The notes beneath the pieces are model-generated. The model saw only the letters and a program-made list of their open reading frames with translations, ran no database searches and had not been told where the DNA came from. A program made the position numbers and the translations under genes. This document shows, piece by piece, positions 4,571-57,750 of a DNA stretch of 64,000 nucleotides. The DNA lies in IMG/VR virus record IMGVR_UViG_3300029893_000004, positions 1 to 64,000 of that record, one strand, 5' to 3'. This DNA is from a virus. Numbering within the stretch: position 1 is the first letter of the stretch; every line of letters begins with the position of its first letter.

Positions 4571-5770
4571 ATGTGGAAGATCATGCACATCGCCGACGTG
4601 CACCTGGAGCGGTCGACGCGCTGGGACGAGCAGCGGCGCGCCATGGCCGCGCTCCGGCAGCACGTGACCGACCGCCGCCCCGACGTCGTGTGCGTCGTAG
4701 GCGACCTGCAGAGCCCACACTCCACGCGGCGCCTGCACCCCGAGGAGCGCAACGAGTGGCGCGAGCTGTTCCTGCACTGCCGCACGGCGGGCGCGAGCGT
4801 CGTGCTCGTGCGCGGCAACCACGACCCGAAGGGCGACGGCCTGCACTTCGTCGACGTGGGCGTGGCGTACGTCGAGACGCCGCAGATCGTGTCGTTCGAG
4901 GACGAGCGGGGCAGGCTGAACATCCACTGCCTCCCGTACCCGGACGCGCAGGACTGGCTCGACGGCACGGAGCCAGCGGGCGAGCGCATCGCGACCATCA
5001 CGCGCCGCGTCGAGGAGCAGGCGCTCGCGTGGGCCGAGGCCGCTGACCCGCGCGCGACCAACGTCCTGGCCTACCACGGCGCGCTGCGCGACGCGGTCAT
5101 CCGCGTCGACGAGAAAAGCCAGCCGAAGGTCGGCGCCGAGCCCCGGCCGTCCGTGCAAGCGTTCAGCGGCTTCCGCGCCGTGCTCATGGGGCACTACCAC
5201 CTGAGCCAGATCATCCGCCCGAACGACACGTGCGTTGCGGCGTACGTGGGCAGCCCCTGGCCGCACACCCACGGCGAGGAGGGGCAGGCCGACAAGGGCG
5301 TGTTCGAGTGGACGGTCGGTCCGACGCACGTCGAGGAGCCGCGGCGCCTGACGCTGCCCTACACGCGGCGGCTCACCTACCACCTGCACTACGACGGCGG
5401 CTTGCGCTGGATCGACGGCACGCCGTTCGGGTCCATCAACGGCCGGGCGCCGTCGCCGGTCGTCGCCACTGAAGGCATGGTGCGCGATGCGATCGTGCGC
5501 GTCGTCGTGCGCTACCCGAAGGGCCTCGCCGATGCCATCAGCAAGGAGGCCATCGGCGCCGAGTTCACGCGCGCCGGGGCGAGCGTCGTCACCGTGCACC
5601 CGTCGCCCGAGCACGACGACCGCGTGCGCGTCGAGGCGCTGGCGTCCACGCACGCGCTGCCGACGCTCCACGACAAGCTGCAGGCCATGTGGCAGGCCGA
5701 GGGCATGCCGGCCGGCGCACCGCCCGCCGGCTGGATTCTCGACGCGTGCGCGCAGCTCCAGGCGGAGTAG
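4571..5770 (+). CDS. sbcD: SbcD/Mre11-type nuclease subunit
   Basis: 399 residues, equal to E. coli SbcD in length. All calcineurin-like phosphoesterase motifs are present in order: DVH at 9-11, GD at 44-45, GNHD at 82-85, YHG at 168-170 and GHYH at 207-210; these bind two metal ions in Mre11 enzymes. With the ATPase encoded immediately downstream it should cleave DNA ends and hairpins. Start ATG 4571 follows GAGGTGACCC and lies nine bases after the previous stop. The C-terminal 150 residues form the capping region, less conserved. Comparable phage pairs are T4 gp47/gp46 and T5 D12/D13. Confidence 0.92.
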   Translation: MWKIMHIADVHLERSTRWDEQRRAMAALRQHVTDRRPDVVCVVGDLQSPHSTRRLHPEERNEWRELFLHCRTAGASVVLVRGNHDPKGDGLHFVDVGVAYVETPQIVSFEDERGRLNIHCLPYPDAQDWLDGTEPAGERIATITRRVEEQALAWAEAADPRATNVLAYHGALRDAVIRVDEKSQPKVGAEPRPSVQAFSGFRAVLMGHYHLSQIIRPNDTCVAAYVGSPWPHTHGEEGQADKGVFEWTVGPTHVEEPRRLTLPYTRRLTYHLHYDGGLRWIDGTPFGSINGRAPSPVVATEGMVRDAIVRVVVRYPKGLADAISKEAIGAEFTRAGASVVTVHPSPEHDDRVRVEALASTHALPTLHDKLQAMWQAEGMPAGAPPAGWILDACAQLQAE

Positions 5771-5779
5771 GAGGACACC

Positions 5780-8700
5780 ATGCAGATCCATCGCATCACG
5801 ATCGAGAACTACAGCCGCTGGCGGAACCGCCGGGCGATCATCGACCTGGACGTCTACGGCCCGGGCGCCATCCAGCTCGCCGGACGCAACGGCGCGGGCA
5901 AGACCACGATTCTCACGGCGCTGCTCGCCGCGATGCTGGGCGAGGACCCGCACACGGCGGACATCGACCGCAAAGCCCACACGGGCCGCGCCGTGATCGA
6001 GGTCGAGCACACCTTCGCCGGGCACCGCTGGCGCCACCGGCTGGAGATCAAGAGGTCCAAGAAGAACGACGGCAAGCAGAAGTTCGAGCACGTGGGCTTC
6101 GTCTGGCGCGACGGCGAGGCGCTCGCCGAGTTCAGCGGCCCGGGCAAGTGGACGGCGTACAAGGCGCACAACCTCGCGCTGCTCGGCAGTCAGGAGTTCT
6201 TCTACACGACCGCCTATAGCGTGCAGCGCGCGGCGCCGCTCAACAACCGCGTGCCCACGTCGCTCGCGCAGTGCACGCCCGAGCAGAGCGAGAAGATCCT
6301 GGCCGTCGCCGGTGGCGTCGACGCCCAGAAGGCGTTCGCGCTCGGGGCCTTCGCCAAGGCCAAGGCCGCGCGCGAGCAGCTCGACGGGCTGCGGCCGCAG
6401 GTCGAGCGGCTGGCGTCGCTCGAGGCGCGCATCGCCCAGACGACCGACCGCCAGACGGCCGCAGCCGAGGCGCTGGACGCCGCGCAACAGGCGCACCAGC
6501 GGGCCGGCGACCGACTGACGCAGGCCACGGCCGAGCGCGACGCCCTGCGCGCGCAGCAGGCGGAGGCCGAGCGCGTCACGGAGCGGCGCCGGGCGCTGCT
6601 CGACGAGCACACCCGCCACACCCAGGCGCAGGAGCGCGAGCGCGCGACGCGCGCGGCAGTCGACGACGCAGCGAGCGCCTACGACGCGGCACGCGCCGTG
6701 CTCGCGACGGCCGTGGACCGCCTGACCGCCGCGCAGACGGCCGCGGCCGACGTGCATCAGGCCATCCTCCGCCGGCAGGACGCAGAGCGCGTGCTGGCGG
6801 ACATGCGCGGCCGGCTCGCGACCATGCAGGCCGACCACGAGCGCACGCGGGACAACGCCAACTGGCTGCGCGCGCAGGTCGAGGGCGCCGAGCGCGACCT
6901 GCAGGCCGCCCAGACGAGCGCCGAGCGCGCGGAGACGGCGCTGGCCGTCGCCCAGGCCGAGCACGGGGCGGCGTCCAGCCAGGCCGAGCGCCGGGCCGAC
7001 GCCGAGCGCGCGCTGCGCGAGGCCACGGCCGCGGCGGAGCGCGCGGCGACCGCACGACAGCAGGCGCAGCAGCGGGCACAGGACGCCGAGCACGCAGCAC
7101 AGCAGGCGCAGGACGCCGAGCGCGCGGCGGTCGAGGCGTTCCAGCGCGCGAGCGCCGGGGAGGCGGAGGCCCTGCGCCAGCGCCGCGACGCGCTGCGCGA
7201 GCAGTACCAGATCGAGCAGGAGCGCCTCGACGTGCTGCGCGGCGAGCGCGAGGCCGCGCAGCAGCGGGTGACCGAGGCCCGCGACGAGGTGCGCGCGCGG
7301 CAGGCGGACGTCACGCAAGCCAACGCCGCGCACGAGGCGGCGCGGCTGGCACTGGACGCCGCGCAACGACAGGCAGCGCTCGTCGACGAGGTGCCGTGCC
7401 GCGGTCAGGGCGGCTTCGCCACCTGCAAGCTGCTGGCGGTCGCCGTGCAGGCCCGGCAGCAGGTGCCGGCGCTCACTGCGGCCCTGGACGAGCGCGGCGA
7501 GGCAGCGCGCGACGCCGCGGCCGCCGCGCGCGACGCGGAGGACGTGGTCCGCGTGCGGATCGCGGACGTCGAGACCCGCGACCGCGCGCTGTACGAGCAG
7601 CGCGAGCGCATGGACGCGCTCGTCAAGTCCGGCAAGGAAGCGGCCGCCGCCCTGCGCGCGGCAGAGGAGACCGAGACGGCCGCCCGCGCGGCGCTCGACG
7701 ATGCGCGCAGCCGGCGCGCGACCGCGGACAGCGCCCTGGCCCTCGCCCGGCAGGGCCTCGACAACCTGACCGCGCAGAGCAACCAAGCGCTCGACGCGCG
7801 CACGCAGGCCGAGGCGCGGCTGGCGGAGCTGCCGACGGTCGACCTGGCCGGCGCGGCGGCGCGGCTCACGGCGACCCAGGGCGCCGCGCGGCAGGCCGCC
7901 GATCGCCTGCGCAGCCTGCGCGAGACCATCGCCCGGCGCCCCGAGCTCGACACGCTCGCCGACCGGCTGGCGACACTCGCCACGGACGTGCAGGCGCTCG
8001 CTCAGCGCGCGGACGAGGCGGCCGCCAGCCTCCCGCCGCTCCCGGACCGCAGCAAGCTCGACGCGCTGACCGAGTTTCAGACCGCCGTGCAGACCGCGCG
8101 CGCAGGCGAGAAGTGGGCGCACGAGGCGCGGGACGACGCGAAGCGCGATCACGCCAAGGCCGCGGCCGCGCTGGGCACGCTGCGGCCGGCGCAGGCCATC
8201 GCCGACGATCTGGAGGCGCTGCCTGCGGTCGAGCCGCCCGACGAGATCGCGGTGCTGTTCGCCGGGCAGGCCGTGGACGAGGCCGAGAGCGCGCTCGCGA
8301 CGGCCGCAGCCGGGGTGCGCGAGGCGCAGTCGGCGCTCGACGAGATCGGCGGCGCGTTGGGCGCGCTGCGCGCGGAGCTGGCGGCGATGGGCGACGTCCG
8401 GGCGCAGATCGCGGCGCTCGAGGAAGAGGTCGCGCGCTGGAAGTGGCTGTACGGCGAGATCAGCCGCCTCATCACGCTCATGGTGCAGGCCACGGCCCCC
8501 GCGCTCAGCGCGCGCATCAACCGCTTCCTGGCCGAGTGCTTCGGCGACCGCTACCGCGTGCGGATCGAGCCGTTCACCGAGAACAGTTCGAACGACGGCG
8601 AGCGCAAGACGTACACGATCTGGGTGCTCGACACCGAGACCGGCGAGGAGCGGCACCTCGACACGTTCAGCGGCGGAGAGTTCGGGCCGCAGCTCCAGGC

Positions 8701-9034
8701 CATCCAGTACGGGCTCATGCTGTACCGCAACGAGAACTGTGACCGCCCGTGGCTGACGCCGTTCGTGGACGAGGGCGACGCAGCGCTCGACCCGGACGCC
8801 TACGGCCAGTGGAAGCAGATGATGGCCGCGGTCATCGAGTCAGGCGCGCTGCATCAGGTGCTCATCGTGTCACACAAGGGCGAGCTGGAGTGGGCGCAGC
8901 AGCTCGACGTGTCGGCCATCGACGGCGAGCCGATCGATGCCGAGGACGGCGAGGCCGACAGGCCGCGCAAGCGCCGCAAGAAGGAGGCTGCACCCGAGCC
9001 GGCCGAGACCATGGCACAGGCGGATCTTTTCTGA
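5780..9034 (+). CDS. sbcC: SbcC/Rad50-type ATPase
   Basis: 1084 residues, start ATG 5780 after GGAGGACACC. Walker A GRNGAGKTT is at 35-43. Long Ala/Glu/Arg/Gln-rich coiled coils run from about 190 to 520 and 560 to 880. The ABC signature FSGGEFG is near 962, Walker B FVDEGDAALD near 993 and the H-loop VSHKGE near 1029. At the coil apex, where Rad50 has CxxC, this protein has PCRGQGGFATCKLL (about 538-550), a wider cysteine pair that may still form a zinc hook. It partners SbcD. The repetitive coil explains the enormous antisense open frames over this region. A T-rich run follows the stop without a clear stem. Confidence 0.92.
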   Translation: MQIHRITIENYSRWRNRRAIIDLDVYGPGAIQLAGRNGAGKTTILTALLAAMLGEDPHTADIDRKAHTGRAVIEVEHTFAGHRWRHRLEIKRSKKNDGKQKFEHVGFVWRDGEALAEFSGPGKWTAYKAHNLALLGSQEFFYTTAYSVQRAAPLNNRVPTSLAQCTPEQSEKILAVAGGVDAQKAFALGAFAKAKAAREQLDGLRPQVERLASLEARIAQTTDRQTAAAEALDAAQQAHQRAGDRLTQATAERDALRAQQAEAERVTERRRALLDEHTRHTQAQERERATRAAVDDAASAYDAARAVLATAVDRLTAAQTAAADVHQAILRRQDAERVLADMRGRLATMQADHERTRDNANWLRAQVEGAERDLQAAQTSAERAETALAVAQAEHGAASSQAERRADAERALREATAAAERAATARQQAQQRAQDAEHAAQQAQDAERAAVEAFQRASAGEAEALRQRRDALREQYQIEQERLDVLRGEREAAQQRVTEARDEVRARQADVTQANAAHEAARLALDAAQRQAALVDEVPCRGQGGFATCKLLAVAVQARQQVPALTAALDERGEAARDAAAAARDAEDVVRVRIADVETRDRALYEQRERMDALVKSGKEAAAALRAAEETETAARAALDDARSRRATADSALALARQGLDNLTAQSNQALDARTQAEARLAELPTVDLAGAAARLTATQGAARQAADRLRSLRETIARRPELDTLADRLATLATDVQALAQRADEAAASLPPLPDRSKLDALTEFQTAVQTARAGEKWAHEARDDAKRDHAKAAAALGTLRPAQAIADDLEALPAVEPPDEIAVLFAGQAVDEAESALATAAAGVREAQSALDEIGGALGALRAELAAMGDVRAQIAALEEEVARWKWLYGEISRLITLMVQATAPALSARINRFLAECFGDRYRVRIEPFTENSSNDGERKTYTIWVLDTETGEERHLDTFSGGEFGPQLQAIQYGLMLYRNENCDRPWLTPFVDEGDAALDPDAYGQWKQMMAAVIESGALHQVLIVSHKGELEWAQQLDVSAIDGEPIDAEDGEADRPRKRRKKEAAPEPAETMAQADLF

Positions 9035-52768: not shown

Positions 52769-52963
52769 CTACCAGCGCCGCGCGGCGCCGAAGCCGACGA
52801 AGATGCCGATGATCAGCAGCACCACCGCGACGCTGATCCACAGCGGCGAGAGCACCCACCACCACGACCAGTCGATGACGCTGCCGAGCTTGAGCCCGAT
52901 GAACAGGATCGTCAGCAGTCCCGCGAAACCCACGCCGCCGCTGCTCCCGCTGCTCTGTGCCAT
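52769..52963 (-). CDS. Fragile-X-F-like transmembrane protein
   Basis: 64 residues from ATG 52963. Two hydrophobic segments flank a WSWWWVLSPLW motif (GFAGLLTILFIGLKLGSVID, WISVAVVLLIIGIFVGFG). The pattern LKL-x-VIDWSWWWVLSPLW matches the phage family called transmembrane Fragile-X-F proteins. Function is unknown; it sits next to the lipoprotein gene, a usual partner of membrane proteins. Confidence 0.75.
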   Translation of the reverse strand: MAQSSGSSGGVGFAGLLTILFIGLKLGSVIDWSWWWVLSPLWISVAVVLLIIGIFVGFGAARRW

Positions 52964-53812: not shown

Positions 53813-54006
53813 GGCAACGGTCTCCTCTGCATTGGGCAAGGGATCTTGGAGTCGCACAGCCCGCCGCACCCGCAAACGGCGCACGTGGCGTCGCCGTAGC
53901 GGCACTTGTCGAGCGTGCGCTTGTGCGTTTCGCAGTAGATATCCTCGCGGTAGCGCCGGCGGCGGGCGTTGCGCTTACGATCCATCAGCTTGCCTACCCA
54001 GGGCAT
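53809..54006 (-). CDS. Small zinc-finger protein
   Basis: 65 residues from ATG 54006, in a TGATG overlap with the ATPase stop. A basic helix (KLMDRKRNARRRRYREDIYC) precedes many cysteines: YCETHKRTLDKCRYGDATC, VCGCGGLCDSKIPCPMQRR. Two zinc sites are possible. The gene begins where the truncated ATPase ends, so the ATPase C-lobe could have been lost at this junction. Confidence 0.6.
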   Translation of the reverse strand: MPWVGKLMDRKRNARRRRYREDIYCETHKRTLDKCRYGDATCAVCGCGGLCDSKIPCPMQRRPLP

Positions 54007-55475
54007 CAGGCCGTCCCCCACTCGTCTTCCGCGAGGATCTCCGAGCAGAGCACCGTCGCGGCCGTCAATTCCTCGTTCGCGCCACCCGCCTCGATGTAGC
54101 CTTGGATGCGACGCACCTTCTCGGCGAGGCTTCGGGCGAACCGCCGGGCGTCTTCGAGCGGAGTTGAACCTGCCTCGGCCGCGCGGACCCTGACGTACGC
54201 TCCGTAGCTACCCTGGATCGCTCGGAGCTCGCTCGCTGTGGCTCGAACCTTCGGGGCGAGGGCTGCATCGATCTCTGCGGAGATCCCTTGGATCGCAGCG
54301 TCCATCTCCTTCAGAGTTGCTCCCAAGGCATGCTGCTCGGTGGACATCTGCTCCGCTGCGACACGAAGCTCCACCCGCAAGCGCTGAACCTTGGCCGCTT
54401 CTGCCTGGGCGGCTTCGAGGGTGGACTCGGGCGCGCGCACTTCGGCATGCCGCTGATGTTCGGGTTCAGCTCCACAGTAGTCGCACGATTTTTCGCCGTA
54501 CATCTGCAGGAGATAGGCAGACTCCTTCATGGCATCGAGCCGAAGAAGGTCCGACTCATAGTGTGCGTCGAGCAAGGACGCGCGTGCGAGCATCGCGTCG
54601 AGTTCATCCAACCGCCCTCGATGCTCGCGTTGCTGGGTAAGGAACTTGGCCCTCTTGGACTCCGCGGCGCGAAGATCGCTCAACGCCGTGCTCGACAGAT
54701 CGCCCAGTTCACGCAGCTTGGCTTCGAGTTCAGACGCCAGCTCAGGCGTGATGTCCATGCTCTGGAGGAGCTCATCGAGCGCGGCCTGGTCACGCTCAAG
54801 CAGACCCTCGATCGCCTCCTTCCGCCCTGCCAACCGGCCCGCGGACGTTTTCGCATCCTCTGGCTGCACGATGGCGGAATCATCGACACCGGTGAGCAAC
54901 ATCCGGATCATACTTGCCGCGGCAGTGTTGCCGGTATTCTGGGAACCGTAGAGCGGAGAGCGCTTCGCGATGATTCGCTCTTCATCGACGATCAGGGCCT
55001 TGGACAGGACCCGGAAACTGGCCTCCTGAGTCGTCCCGCTATCGTTCTTGCGGACTCGCCTGCCATCAAGGCCGCACAGGCCAAGCAAGAAGCCGGAGAC
55101 AGACTCCTTGGCGTTGGTGGTCTCGCCCAGAACCTCCCACTCGATGTCGGCTCCGAGTGCATCGTCGATCGGCCCGCGAAAGAGCCCGATCTTCCCACCA
55201 ACGAGCGCACGCTTCAGGGTGTAGAACTGGCCGTCGGCCGCTTCGATGCACAGATAGGCGACGTCGTACGGTCTTGCCTGCGGGATCTCTTCGGGAGGGG
55301 TGCCGGCGCCCATCACGAAGTCGATGCAGCTCAAGGCGTAGGACTTCCCCGTATCCGACGCCCCCTCGATGACGTTGAGCCCCGACGCGAAGACGAGACT
55401 CCCGGCCACCTGACCAGGGCCACAGAGACGAAGCTCCCGAAGCTCGAAACCGCGGCGAGCGCTCTCGTCTGTCAT
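54006..55475 (-). CDS. ABC-3C system ATPase, lacking the C-terminal lobe
   Basis: 489 residues from ATG 55475. It matches ABC-three-component ATPases at the N-terminus: FELRELRLCGPGQVAGSLVF, Walker A GASDTGKS at 38-45, LLGLCGLDGRRVRKNDSGTT, LIVDEERIIAKRSPLYGSQN and LLTGVDDSAIVQPEDAKTSA. A coiled coil follows with a zinc-hook CDYC near 330-333, then a returning coil. It ends soon after, EILAEDEWGTA, without an ABC signature or Walker B. Family members have roughly 150 more residues. Base and codon use look less GC-biased than in neighbouring genes, suggesting transfer. It is coupled by ATGA to the middle component. ATP hydrolysis is unlikely in this form. Confidence 0.78.
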   Translation of the reverse strand: MTDESARRGFELRELRLCGPGQVAGSLVFASGLNVIEGASDTGKSYALSCIDFVMGAGTPPEEIPQARPYDVAYLCIEAADGQFYTLKRALVGGKIGLFRGPIDDALGADIEWEVLGETTNAKESVSGFLLGLCGLDGRRVRKNDSGTTQEASFRVLSKALIVDEERIIAKRSPLYGSQNTGNTAAASMIRMLLTGVDDSAIVQPEDAKTSAGRLAGRKEAIEGLLERDQAALDELLQSMDITPELASELEAKLRELGDLSSTALSDLRAAESKRAKFLTQQREHRGRLDELDAMLARASLLDAHYESDLLRLDAMKESAYLLQMYGEKSCDYCGAEPEHQRHAEVRAPESTLEAAQAEAAKVQRLRVELRVAAEQMSTEQHALGATLKEMDAAIQGISAEIDAALAPKVRATASELRAIQGSYGAYVRVRAAEAGSTPLEDARRFARSLAEKVRRIQGYIEAGGANEELTAATVLCSEILAEDEWGTA

Positions 55476-55972
55476 GTCGACCTCCCTGAGCCGCGGTACT
55501 CGGCGAACTGCCCACCCCAGCGATCGAGCTCTGTATTGACGTATCGGCTGATCTCGCTGGTCTCCAACTCTCCGAAGCTCGCTGCGATCCAGCTCGCGCG
55601 GCTCCGAAGGGCTTCGACATACTTGCTGCGGAGCGAGTCCAGGAAGCAGCCGCCTCGGTCGGTTGCGCCGTAGCTGAAACCGTTCGCGTCCATCGTCACG
55701 GAGACCAGACCGCGCCTGGCGTACAGGGCAAGGCCAGGCTCCAGCACGGCACGTCGGACGAGCACTTCGGCTCCGCGTTGTGGCACCGCAGGATGGAGAC
55801 TCTCCGGGCCACCGTCCACGTCCGCCGAGTGGACCAGAAGGTAGTCGAGCAGAACGAGCCGCTGAAGGTCGTGGCGATGAGGATCGAGCTCGACGAGGAT
55901 GCACAGCGAGCGGAGCCCAAGCTCGACTGGCGAGTTGAACACCCAGGATGTCGTGGCGTCCGGCGTGCCCAT
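55472..55972 (-). CDS. ABC-3C system middle component
   Basis: 166 residues from ATG 55972 (TGATG overlap). VFNSPVELGLRSLCILVELD, DLQRLVLLDYLLVHSADVDG, ESLHPAVPQRGAEVLVRRAV and GLVSVTMDANGFSYGATDRG follow the family pattern of ABC-3C middle components, small winged-helix-like adaptors linking the ATPase and an effector. The upstream gene, expected to be the effector, is only 63 residues and does not resemble one, so the system seems incomplete. ABC-3C loci are predicted anti-mobile-element systems; a phage copy may be a decoy, inhibitor or superinfection-exclusion device. Confidence 0.8.
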   Translation of the reverse strand: MGTPDATTSWVFNSPVELGLRSLCILVELDPHRHDLQRLVLLDYLLVHSADVDGGPESLHPAVPQRGAEVLVRRAVLEPGLALYARRGLVSVTMDANGFSYGATDRGGCFLDSLRSKYVEALRSRASWIAASFGELETSEISRYVNTELDRWGGQFAEYRGSGRST

Positions 55973-56163
55973 CACGGCACCCACTTGAGCCGAGCGTTGT
56001 CGGCGAGCTGGTGGCAGATGCCTGCCTTGTCCTTGACCCCGAGCACCTGACCGACGCCGCTGGTCCAGCGCACGCGCACGACGCCGCGCCCTGCCTCCGT
56101 CTTGTGCTTGTTCTTGCGCCGGCCCTCGGTGTGACTGCGGCGGCGCAGGATGTTCGTGTTCAC
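55972..56163 (-). CDS. Small basic protein upstream of the ABC-3C pair
   Basis: 63 residues from GTG 56163 with GGAGGCGGGG. Basic N-terminus (VNTNILRRRSHTEGRRKNKH) followed by VVRVRWTSGVGQVLGVKDKA and ICHQLADNARLKWVP. It looks like a small SH3-like beta barrel with a basic arm, similar in style to nucleic-acid-binding adaptors. It overlaps the middle component gene by TGATG. Confidence 0.55.
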   Translation of the reverse strand: MNTNILRRRSHTEGRRKNKHKTEAGRGVVRVRWTSGVGQVLGVKDKAGICHQLADNARLKWVP

Positions 56164-56385: not shown

Positions 56386-57750
56386 TCAGGCCGCCGCGCT
56401 TTCCGCAAAACGCCAGCCGGTATCGGCACTTAGCTCCGCCTCGCGCGCTTCACCCACAAGCAGGTTGCCACCAAACAGAGCGCGTCCGTCCTCGAACGGC
56501 ACGATCTGCGGCCAGACGGCGCCGTCGTCGCAGCGGGTGAGCACCATGGCGCCCTGCTGCCAGTCGACGCGCGGCGTCGCGGCCGGCACCACGCCGTCAA
56601 TGCGGCAGAGCGTGCCCGGGCTCCCGCTGAAGATGCGCGTGCGGCGCCCGCCCGGGCCGTGCAGCGTGCGCCACGCGAGCTCGCAGCGGTGGATGTGCCC
56701 GTAGACCTCGGAGTGCGTGGCCTCGCCCAGCACGGCGGCGGCCGTCGCGCCCGCGCGCTTGCGTACCGTGTGCCCGTGGTGCACACGCACCTGGTCCCAC
56801 AGCCACACCTCGGCGCCGTAGGGCCCGTGGTACTCGACGTCGAGCGCCGCGAGCCCGAGCAGGCGCGGGATGCTCAGGAGCGCCGGCCCGCGCGTGTCGT
56901 CGGCCGGTCGCAGGCCCTCGGCCTCGGGCAGCATGGCGACGATCGCCTTCTCGATCCGGTGCTCGTGGTTGCCCTCCAGGTAGACGATGCGCGCCCCGGG
57001 CGCCGCTGTGCGCAGGCGCCCGATGAACCAGTGCAACTCGATCAGGCTCGCCTGCGTCGTGTACCGGAGCGCGGCGCTGGCCGTGTACTTGGTCGACCAC
57101 GGCGCCAGGTCGAGCATGTCGCCCAGGAGCACGATGATCTCGGGCTGCAGGAGCTGCGCGAGCTGTACGGCCAAGTCGCAGGCGCGCCGGTCGTGCAGCG
57201 GGTCGAGCGTGCCGCGCTCCCGGTCGTGCCGGAACCCGTGCTGACTGTCGGGGACGATGAGCGCCTGTCGCAGCGCCCCGGGCTCGAGGGGCCGCGCCTC
57301 GCGCCGGAGGTGCGCGACCGGCTGCACCGGCTCGAGGCCGGGCGTGCGCTGTTGCAGATGCGCCGTCACCTGCCAGACGCGCCGGTCGCCGCTCACCCAG
57401 CTATTCGCCTTCCAGCGCTCGACCGCCCAGCGCTCCCGGTCGACGTCCGCGTCGCGCATCAGGTCGTCGAGCGTGTAGGGGCCCTCATCCGTCGCAGCTC
57501 CGGCCGTCGCCCCGTCGTCGGTCTCGCGCAGGGCAGCGGGGGCCGGCGGGGGCGGCTCCTCGGCGTCCTGGGGCACGCGCGGCGGCTTGATGCGCGTCGT
57601 CATCGGGCGGCCGCTCTTCGCGGCCTCGATGCGCCCGCGCAGGGTCGAGCGCGAGACGCCCAGCGCGCGGGCGGCGCTGGCGACGCACCCGTGGTGCGGC
57701 TCGGAGTCGACGAAGCGCAGGAGCGCCTCGCCGGTCAGGGAGTCGGCCAT
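56386..57750 (-). CDS. HTH protein fused to calcineurin-like phosphoesterase
   Basis: 454 residues from ATG 57750 with AAGGA in front. Near the N-terminus HHGCVASAARALGVSRSTLR (about 17-36) is a Fis-type helix-turn-helix. After a Pro/Ala-rich linker the phosphoesterase domain shows IVPDSQHGFRHDRE (first metal motif with D and H), IIVLLGDMLDL (GD), YLEGNHEHRIEKA (GNHE) and VHHGHTVRK and YGHIHRCEL (GHxH). Such fusions are known in phages; the HTH may target DNA ends or operators. Function unproved. Confidence 0.82.
   Translation of the reverse strand: MADSLTGEALLRFVDSEPHHGCVASAARALGVSRSTLRGRIEAAKSGRPMTTRIKPPRVPQDAEEPPPPAPAALRETDDGATAGAATDEGPYTLDDLMRDADVDRERWAVERWKANSWVSGDRRVWQVTAHLQQRTPGLEPVQPVAHLRREARPLEPGALRQALIVPDSQHGFRHDRERGTLDPLHDRRACDLAVQLAQLLQPEIIVLLGDMLDLAPWSTKYTASAALRYTTQASLIELHWFIGRLRTAAPGARIVYLEGNHEHRIEKAIVAMLPEAEGLRPADDTRGPALLSIPRLLGLAALDVEYHGPYGAEVWLWDQVRVHHGHTVRKRAGATAAAVLGEATHSEVYGHIHRCELAWRTLHGPGGRRTRIFSGSPGTLCRIDGVVPAATPRVDWQQGAMVLTRCDDGAVWPQIVPFEDGRALFGGNLLVGEAREAELSADTGWRFAESAAA

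Follow-up and report, generated by a model that had tools for sequence, protein, structure and literature searches.

ABC-3C and DdmABC systems are both placed within the Lamassu superfamily (PMC10586767). All Lamassu components are essential wherever they have been tested, including ATP binding by LmuB and the enzymatic activity of LmuA (PMC10586767). Lamassu-type genes also occur on phage genomes, and the loci of Vibrio phage 10N.286.54.F2_PE001, Streptococcus phage Javan630 and Christensenellales phage NatCom_6392 are complete three-gene operons. Partial phage-borne defence is nevertheless a common feature. In marine Vibrio prophages, the share with incomplete defence is 20.7% among the tailless and 33.1% among the filamentous ones, and single defence genes lie beside possible partners (PMC11630473). 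The locus described here shares Lamassu-type genes on a phage genome with the three complete loci, but it is clipped at both ends, and unlike in the Vibrio prophages the breakpoints cut inside genes.

The DNA analysed (the window) comprises bases 1–64,000 of an 82,095-base virus record with a tailed-phage gene set, including portal, major head protein, large terminase, and DnaB-like helicase (Table 1). At both record ends lie pieces of a single DNA methyltransferase gene that overlap and are in part duplicated. This points to a genome that is circular or circularly permuted and whose join was assembled imperfectly. The phage also encodes SbcD-like and SbcC-like proteins. SbcCD processes DNA hairpins. 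Hairpin-forming palindromes are the presumed Lamassu trigger (PMC10586767), and a link between these phage proteins and Lamassu evasion is conceivable.

On profile evidence, the "ABC-3C pair" of the window is a Lamassu pair, LmuC and LmuB. The two minus-strand ORFs are translationally coupled by an ATGA overlap, and the prediction of a coupled middle component and ATPase was borne out by the Pfam family of the former and the PADLOC LmuC and LmuB profiles. The MC2 middle component is present in full, as is the N-lobe of LmuB with Walker A, coiled coil and zinc-hook CxxC. The LmuB match covers residues 10–421 only, corresponding to profile positions 3–411 of 610.

Table 1. Features of the Lamassu segment and of the phage record around it (window positions unless marked as record positions).
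Feature	Position	Strand	Evidence
Small ORF downstream of truncated lmuB, 65 aa	53809..54006	-	Weak phrog_35028 match, E 0.01
Truncated lmuB, 489-aa ORF	54006..55475	-	PADLOC LmuB 3.1e-101; alignment to full-length LmuBs
Non-Lamassu C-terminal extension of LmuB, 59 residues	54006..54185	-	No homolog; codon score positive only in this frame
Captured internal segment of bacterial lmuA-lmuC-lmuB operon, 1863 bp	54187..56049	-	Ungapped blastn
lmuC (MC2 middle component), complete, 166 aa	55472..55972	-	Pfam PF20288 8.9e-47; PADLOC LmuC 2.3e-51
3' end of lmuA (effector), last ~24 codons of 357	about 55972-56049 to 56055	-	CTD6, shuffle control, tblastn
GTG-start ORF, 63 aa: 38 unmatched phage-like codons that run in frame into the lmuA relic	55972..56163	-	
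SbcD-like and SbcC-like proteins	4571-9034	+	phrog_100 E 2.5e-10; phrog_77 E 1.8e-11
Small membrane protein	52769-52963	-	DNA 71-78% identical to phage genes
Metallophosphoesterase	56386-57750	-	phrog_20266 1.1e-46
DNA methyltransferase, pieces of one gene	1-373 and record 81781-82095		

Truncation of LmuB is sharp. The phage protein consists of codons 1 to ~430 of about 618, followed by 59 unrelated codons. Aligned to nine full-length LmuBs (595–626 aa), it keeps Walker A (GASDTGKS) and the hook (CDYC) in invariant columns and lacks the block with the signature (SxGKGxR) and Walker B (hhhhDSPL), as the original prediction had described it. The breakpoint, which was to be placed by alignment, falls at codon ~430, and the last 59 residues turned out not to be Lamassu sequence. 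The C-lobe, to which ABC signature and Walker B belong, is missing from the protein and also from the whole record: the C-lobes of the nine full-length LmuBs reached at best E 0.29 by tblastn in the complete 82,095 bases, and the two closest cellular C-lobes gave zero matches, so the truncation stands. A frameshift or sequencing break in lmuB was considered and rejected, as no C-lobe remnant is found in any frame and the sequence beyond the breakpoint is unrelated. The 59-residue extension is probably phage-derived. It ends in a stop overlapping the ATG of the 65-aa ORF (TGATG).

Directly upstream of lmuC lies a relic of the effector gene. It matches positions 106–130 of CTD6 (PF20282) with E 3.7e-6, and its local alignment score is 145 vs a maximum of 55 in shuffled controls. 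The last ~24 lmuA codons (QVLGVKDKAGICHQLADNARLKWVP) encode a protein identical to the end of Marinobacterium stanieri LmuA, and their stop TGA overlaps the lmuC ATG (TGATG). The claim that no effector gene is adjacent thus needs amending: these codons are in place, whereas the catalytic portion is indeed gone, as is the bulk of the docking domain, and of the two parts of an LmuA, enzymatic domain and docking domain at the C-terminus, nothing else is left. As a lmuA tail is present without the rest of the gene, the operon has been clipped on the 5' side too; the source therefore once held the effector, which was lost along with nearly the whole docking domain. The relic continues an ORF whose first 38 codons have no database match. 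The frame of this ORF has a phage codon score of 0.47 per codon, and the score is negative in the other five frames.

The closest complete operons are those of M. stanieri and Thiocapsa sp. KS1. They align with the phage DNA by ungapped blastn over 1863 bp at 84.6% identity and over 1876 bp at 83.6% identity, respectively, and these alignments establish the origin of the segment in a Lamassu operon. Both cellular operons have the lmuA-lmuC-lmuB order and the same gene overlaps as the phage segment, in which the order is kept in the relic together with TGATG and ATGA. They encode a complete 357-aa LmuA (PADLOC LmuA; CTD6, PF20282) and a 618-aa LmuB with C-lobe, and the phage has neither. Homology to the cellular operons starts in the last codons of lmuA, ends at lmuB codon ~430 and is abrupt on both sides, so that what lies in the window is an inner stretch of the operon, clipped at each end. 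The 59-codon tail and the 38-codon upstream part look coding in frame, which points to in-frame fusion to flanking sequence, probably that of the phage, at both ends. Neither part was matched in phages, plasmids, PHROGs, or IMG/VR (not every part against every collection). Among 369 sampled genomes from the class to which Thiocapsa belongs, none held a closer donor. Searches for relatives of the phage did not yield the empty site: the metallophosphoesterase has relatives on many IMG/VR contigs at 40–48% identity, with 48% as the best, and gene order at the site is not shared, while the neighbouring gene for a 1178-aa protein gave no match as a query for phage relatives. The reconstruction of the capture event accordingly draws on the cellular copies alone. 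Near the insertion, the gene shared most widely is that of the small membrane protein, with counterparts in Rhodobacter, Gordonia, Rhodococcus, and Arthrobacter phages.

Composition sets the segment apart from the phage, in line with the AT-shift noted earlier for the pair. The GC content of the segment is 63.7% (63–65%) vs 61.1 and 60.2% in the two cellular copies and about 70% in the phage, and GC3 of lmuC and truncated lmuB is 0.75–0.77 vs about 0.9 in typical phage genes. Substitutions on the phage branch are balanced, with 39 AT to GC and 38 GC to AT. A GC3 below the phage level and the lack of GC skew in the substitutions indicate that the segment has not been ameliorated and that the DNA is recent in the phage genome. 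Values of dN/dS between the phage and cellular copies are low (0.07–0.14) and fit recency and continued selection equally. Synonymous and non-synonymous changes number 55:14 on the phage branch and 159:60 on the branches of the cellular copies, which is no difference (Fisher P 0.27) and shows no relaxation in the phage lineage, and under simple assumptions at most about 2–3 unconstrained synonymous changes could have accumulated. The low dN/dS therefore allows a short neutral phase at most, and would follow equally from a capture in the very recent past or from selection that continues; of the two, recency is favoured by composition.

AlphaFold2 models of the phage LmuB and of the full-length Thiocapsa LmuB, built from alignments of the collected loci (39 and 38 sequences), bear on the capacity of the proteins to work. 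In the Thiocapsa model the head contains strands at residues 33–38, 489–492, 497–500, 538–542, 579–584, and 597–602. In the phage model the strand before Walker A (33–38) is unformed, the C-lobe strands are absent, and residues 465–489 are predicted to be disordered; coiled coil and hook are predicted with high confidence. SMC chains of the solved Lamassu complexes (PDB 9hqu/9hqx, Salmonella LmuACB; 9nyg; 9uxh) are among the best Foldseek matches of both models, but the match is weaker for the phage model (best E 2.8e-8 vs 7.3e-16), which is consistent with the missing C-lobe. Walker B and the signature both reside in this lobe, which also completes the head, so the phage protein cannot assemble a full ATP site. 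With no nuclease and an SMC-like protein devoid of its C-lobe, the products presumably cannot work as Lamassu. Judged from the model, phage LmuB might have retained a residual ability to pair with full-length LmuB through its coiled coil and hook.

The truncated form is rare among the copies surveyed. Full-length LmuB was found in all 80 bacterial copies fetched. In the viral survey, 32 contigs carry an LmuB relative, 30 of them with a complete 3' end; 29 of these 30 proteins have at least 584 aa, and nearly all have a recognisable Walker B. The sole exception (locus L071) is broken differently and was rejected as the same form, because the frame downstream of its short LmuB looks like the C-terminus of a serine recombinase. 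The arrangement around positions 5001–6389 of that locus resembles a mobile-element insertion within lmuB. A second phage with the truncated form, as the original prediction had asked for, was not found by protein, profile and junction scans of IMG/VR, which are of limited sensitivity; single-sequence scans of viral contigs with truncated LmuB and LmuC gave nothing, and the left junction is not on any other IMG/VR contig. Within the sensitivity of these scans, the truncated form thus appears isolated and is not a conserved phage type. The prediction had also named, as counter-evidence, related phages with the full operon and a present copy that is only a sequencing break: the former applies in a general sense, phage-borne Lamassu elsewhere being normally complete, but the break itself does not hold.

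The pair is probably a recent, non-functional captured fragment of a Lamassu operon, which agrees with the decay remnant that had been listed first among the original readings. A tailed phage would have acquired a 1.86-kb internal segment through recombination, either with a bacterium or with some other mobile element, taking up the last ~24 codons of lmuA, the whole of lmuC and codons 1–430 of lmuB. Both ORFs may still be translated via the preserved start/stop overlaps. The remnant would be functionally neutral and so recent that no stops have been gained and no drift to phage codon composition has occurred. Against neutrality it can be held that neither ORF is disrupted, that the reading frames run on through each junction, that coupling by TGATG and ATGA is kept, and that the dN/dS values suit continued selection just as well. 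The same open frames, coupling and low dN/dS, along with a complete LmuC, an intact CDYC hook and a confidently predicted coiled coil, are points in favour of a dominant-negative decoy, in which LmuC and a headless LmuB would poison the host Lamassu, for example by zinc-hook pairing with host LmuB or by LmuC titrating LmuA or LmuB, and let the phage escape abortive infection. The predicted coiled coil and hook and the complete LmuC are the only physical basis left for such an activity, which is unlikely: intact frames are explained by recency, the tail of LmuB is unrelated and partly disordered sequence, the segment begins at an arbitrary point in lmuA, as with a random breakpoint, and no second phage has the truncated form or the same junction. 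That the phage domesticated headless LmuB and LmuC as an inhibitor of host Lamassu by clipping the defence operon itself is a shade more doubtful still.

The idea of a reduced working device, in which truncated LmuB and LmuC act with another phage or host effector in superinfection exclusion, draws on the observation that prophages often hold incomplete defence systems, possibly completed by neighbouring genes (PMC11630473), and small uncharacterised ORFs do flank the pair. The neighbouring ORFs tested gave no confident family match, however, the lobe needed for a complete ATP site is missing, and the other phage-borne Lamassu loci whose annotation was read are complete A-C-B operons, which makes this the least probable of the explanations. 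The decoy and superinfection readings of the original prediction have in common that no positive support was obtained for them: the truncated form occurs in no other phage or genome examined, both operon ends and not the ATPase alone are clipped, with ~24 of 357 effector residues left, and the truncated ATPase head loses core-sheet strands in the model. An assembly chimera, in which the assembler joined a bacterial Lamassu fragment into a phage contig, would be in keeping with the repeated, scrambled-looking contig ends and with a left junction seen on no second contig. It is quite improbable, though not to the degree of the reduced device, as it needs two independent misjoins 1.86 kb apart, both in frame and both with flanking codons that look coding in that same frame.

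As a captured remnant, the locus is a clean example of the uptake by a phage of a portion of an immune operon from bacteria, and the two breakpoints can both be seen. No phage anti-defence pair made by clipping a defence operon was found described in the literature searched, and no Lamassu inhibitor is included in the table of a 2026 review (PMC12904381). Should the headless pair inhibit Lamassu, it would matter more, because no described inhibitor of this system was found. Capture of this kind could supply phages with defence genes or with raw material for counter-defence.
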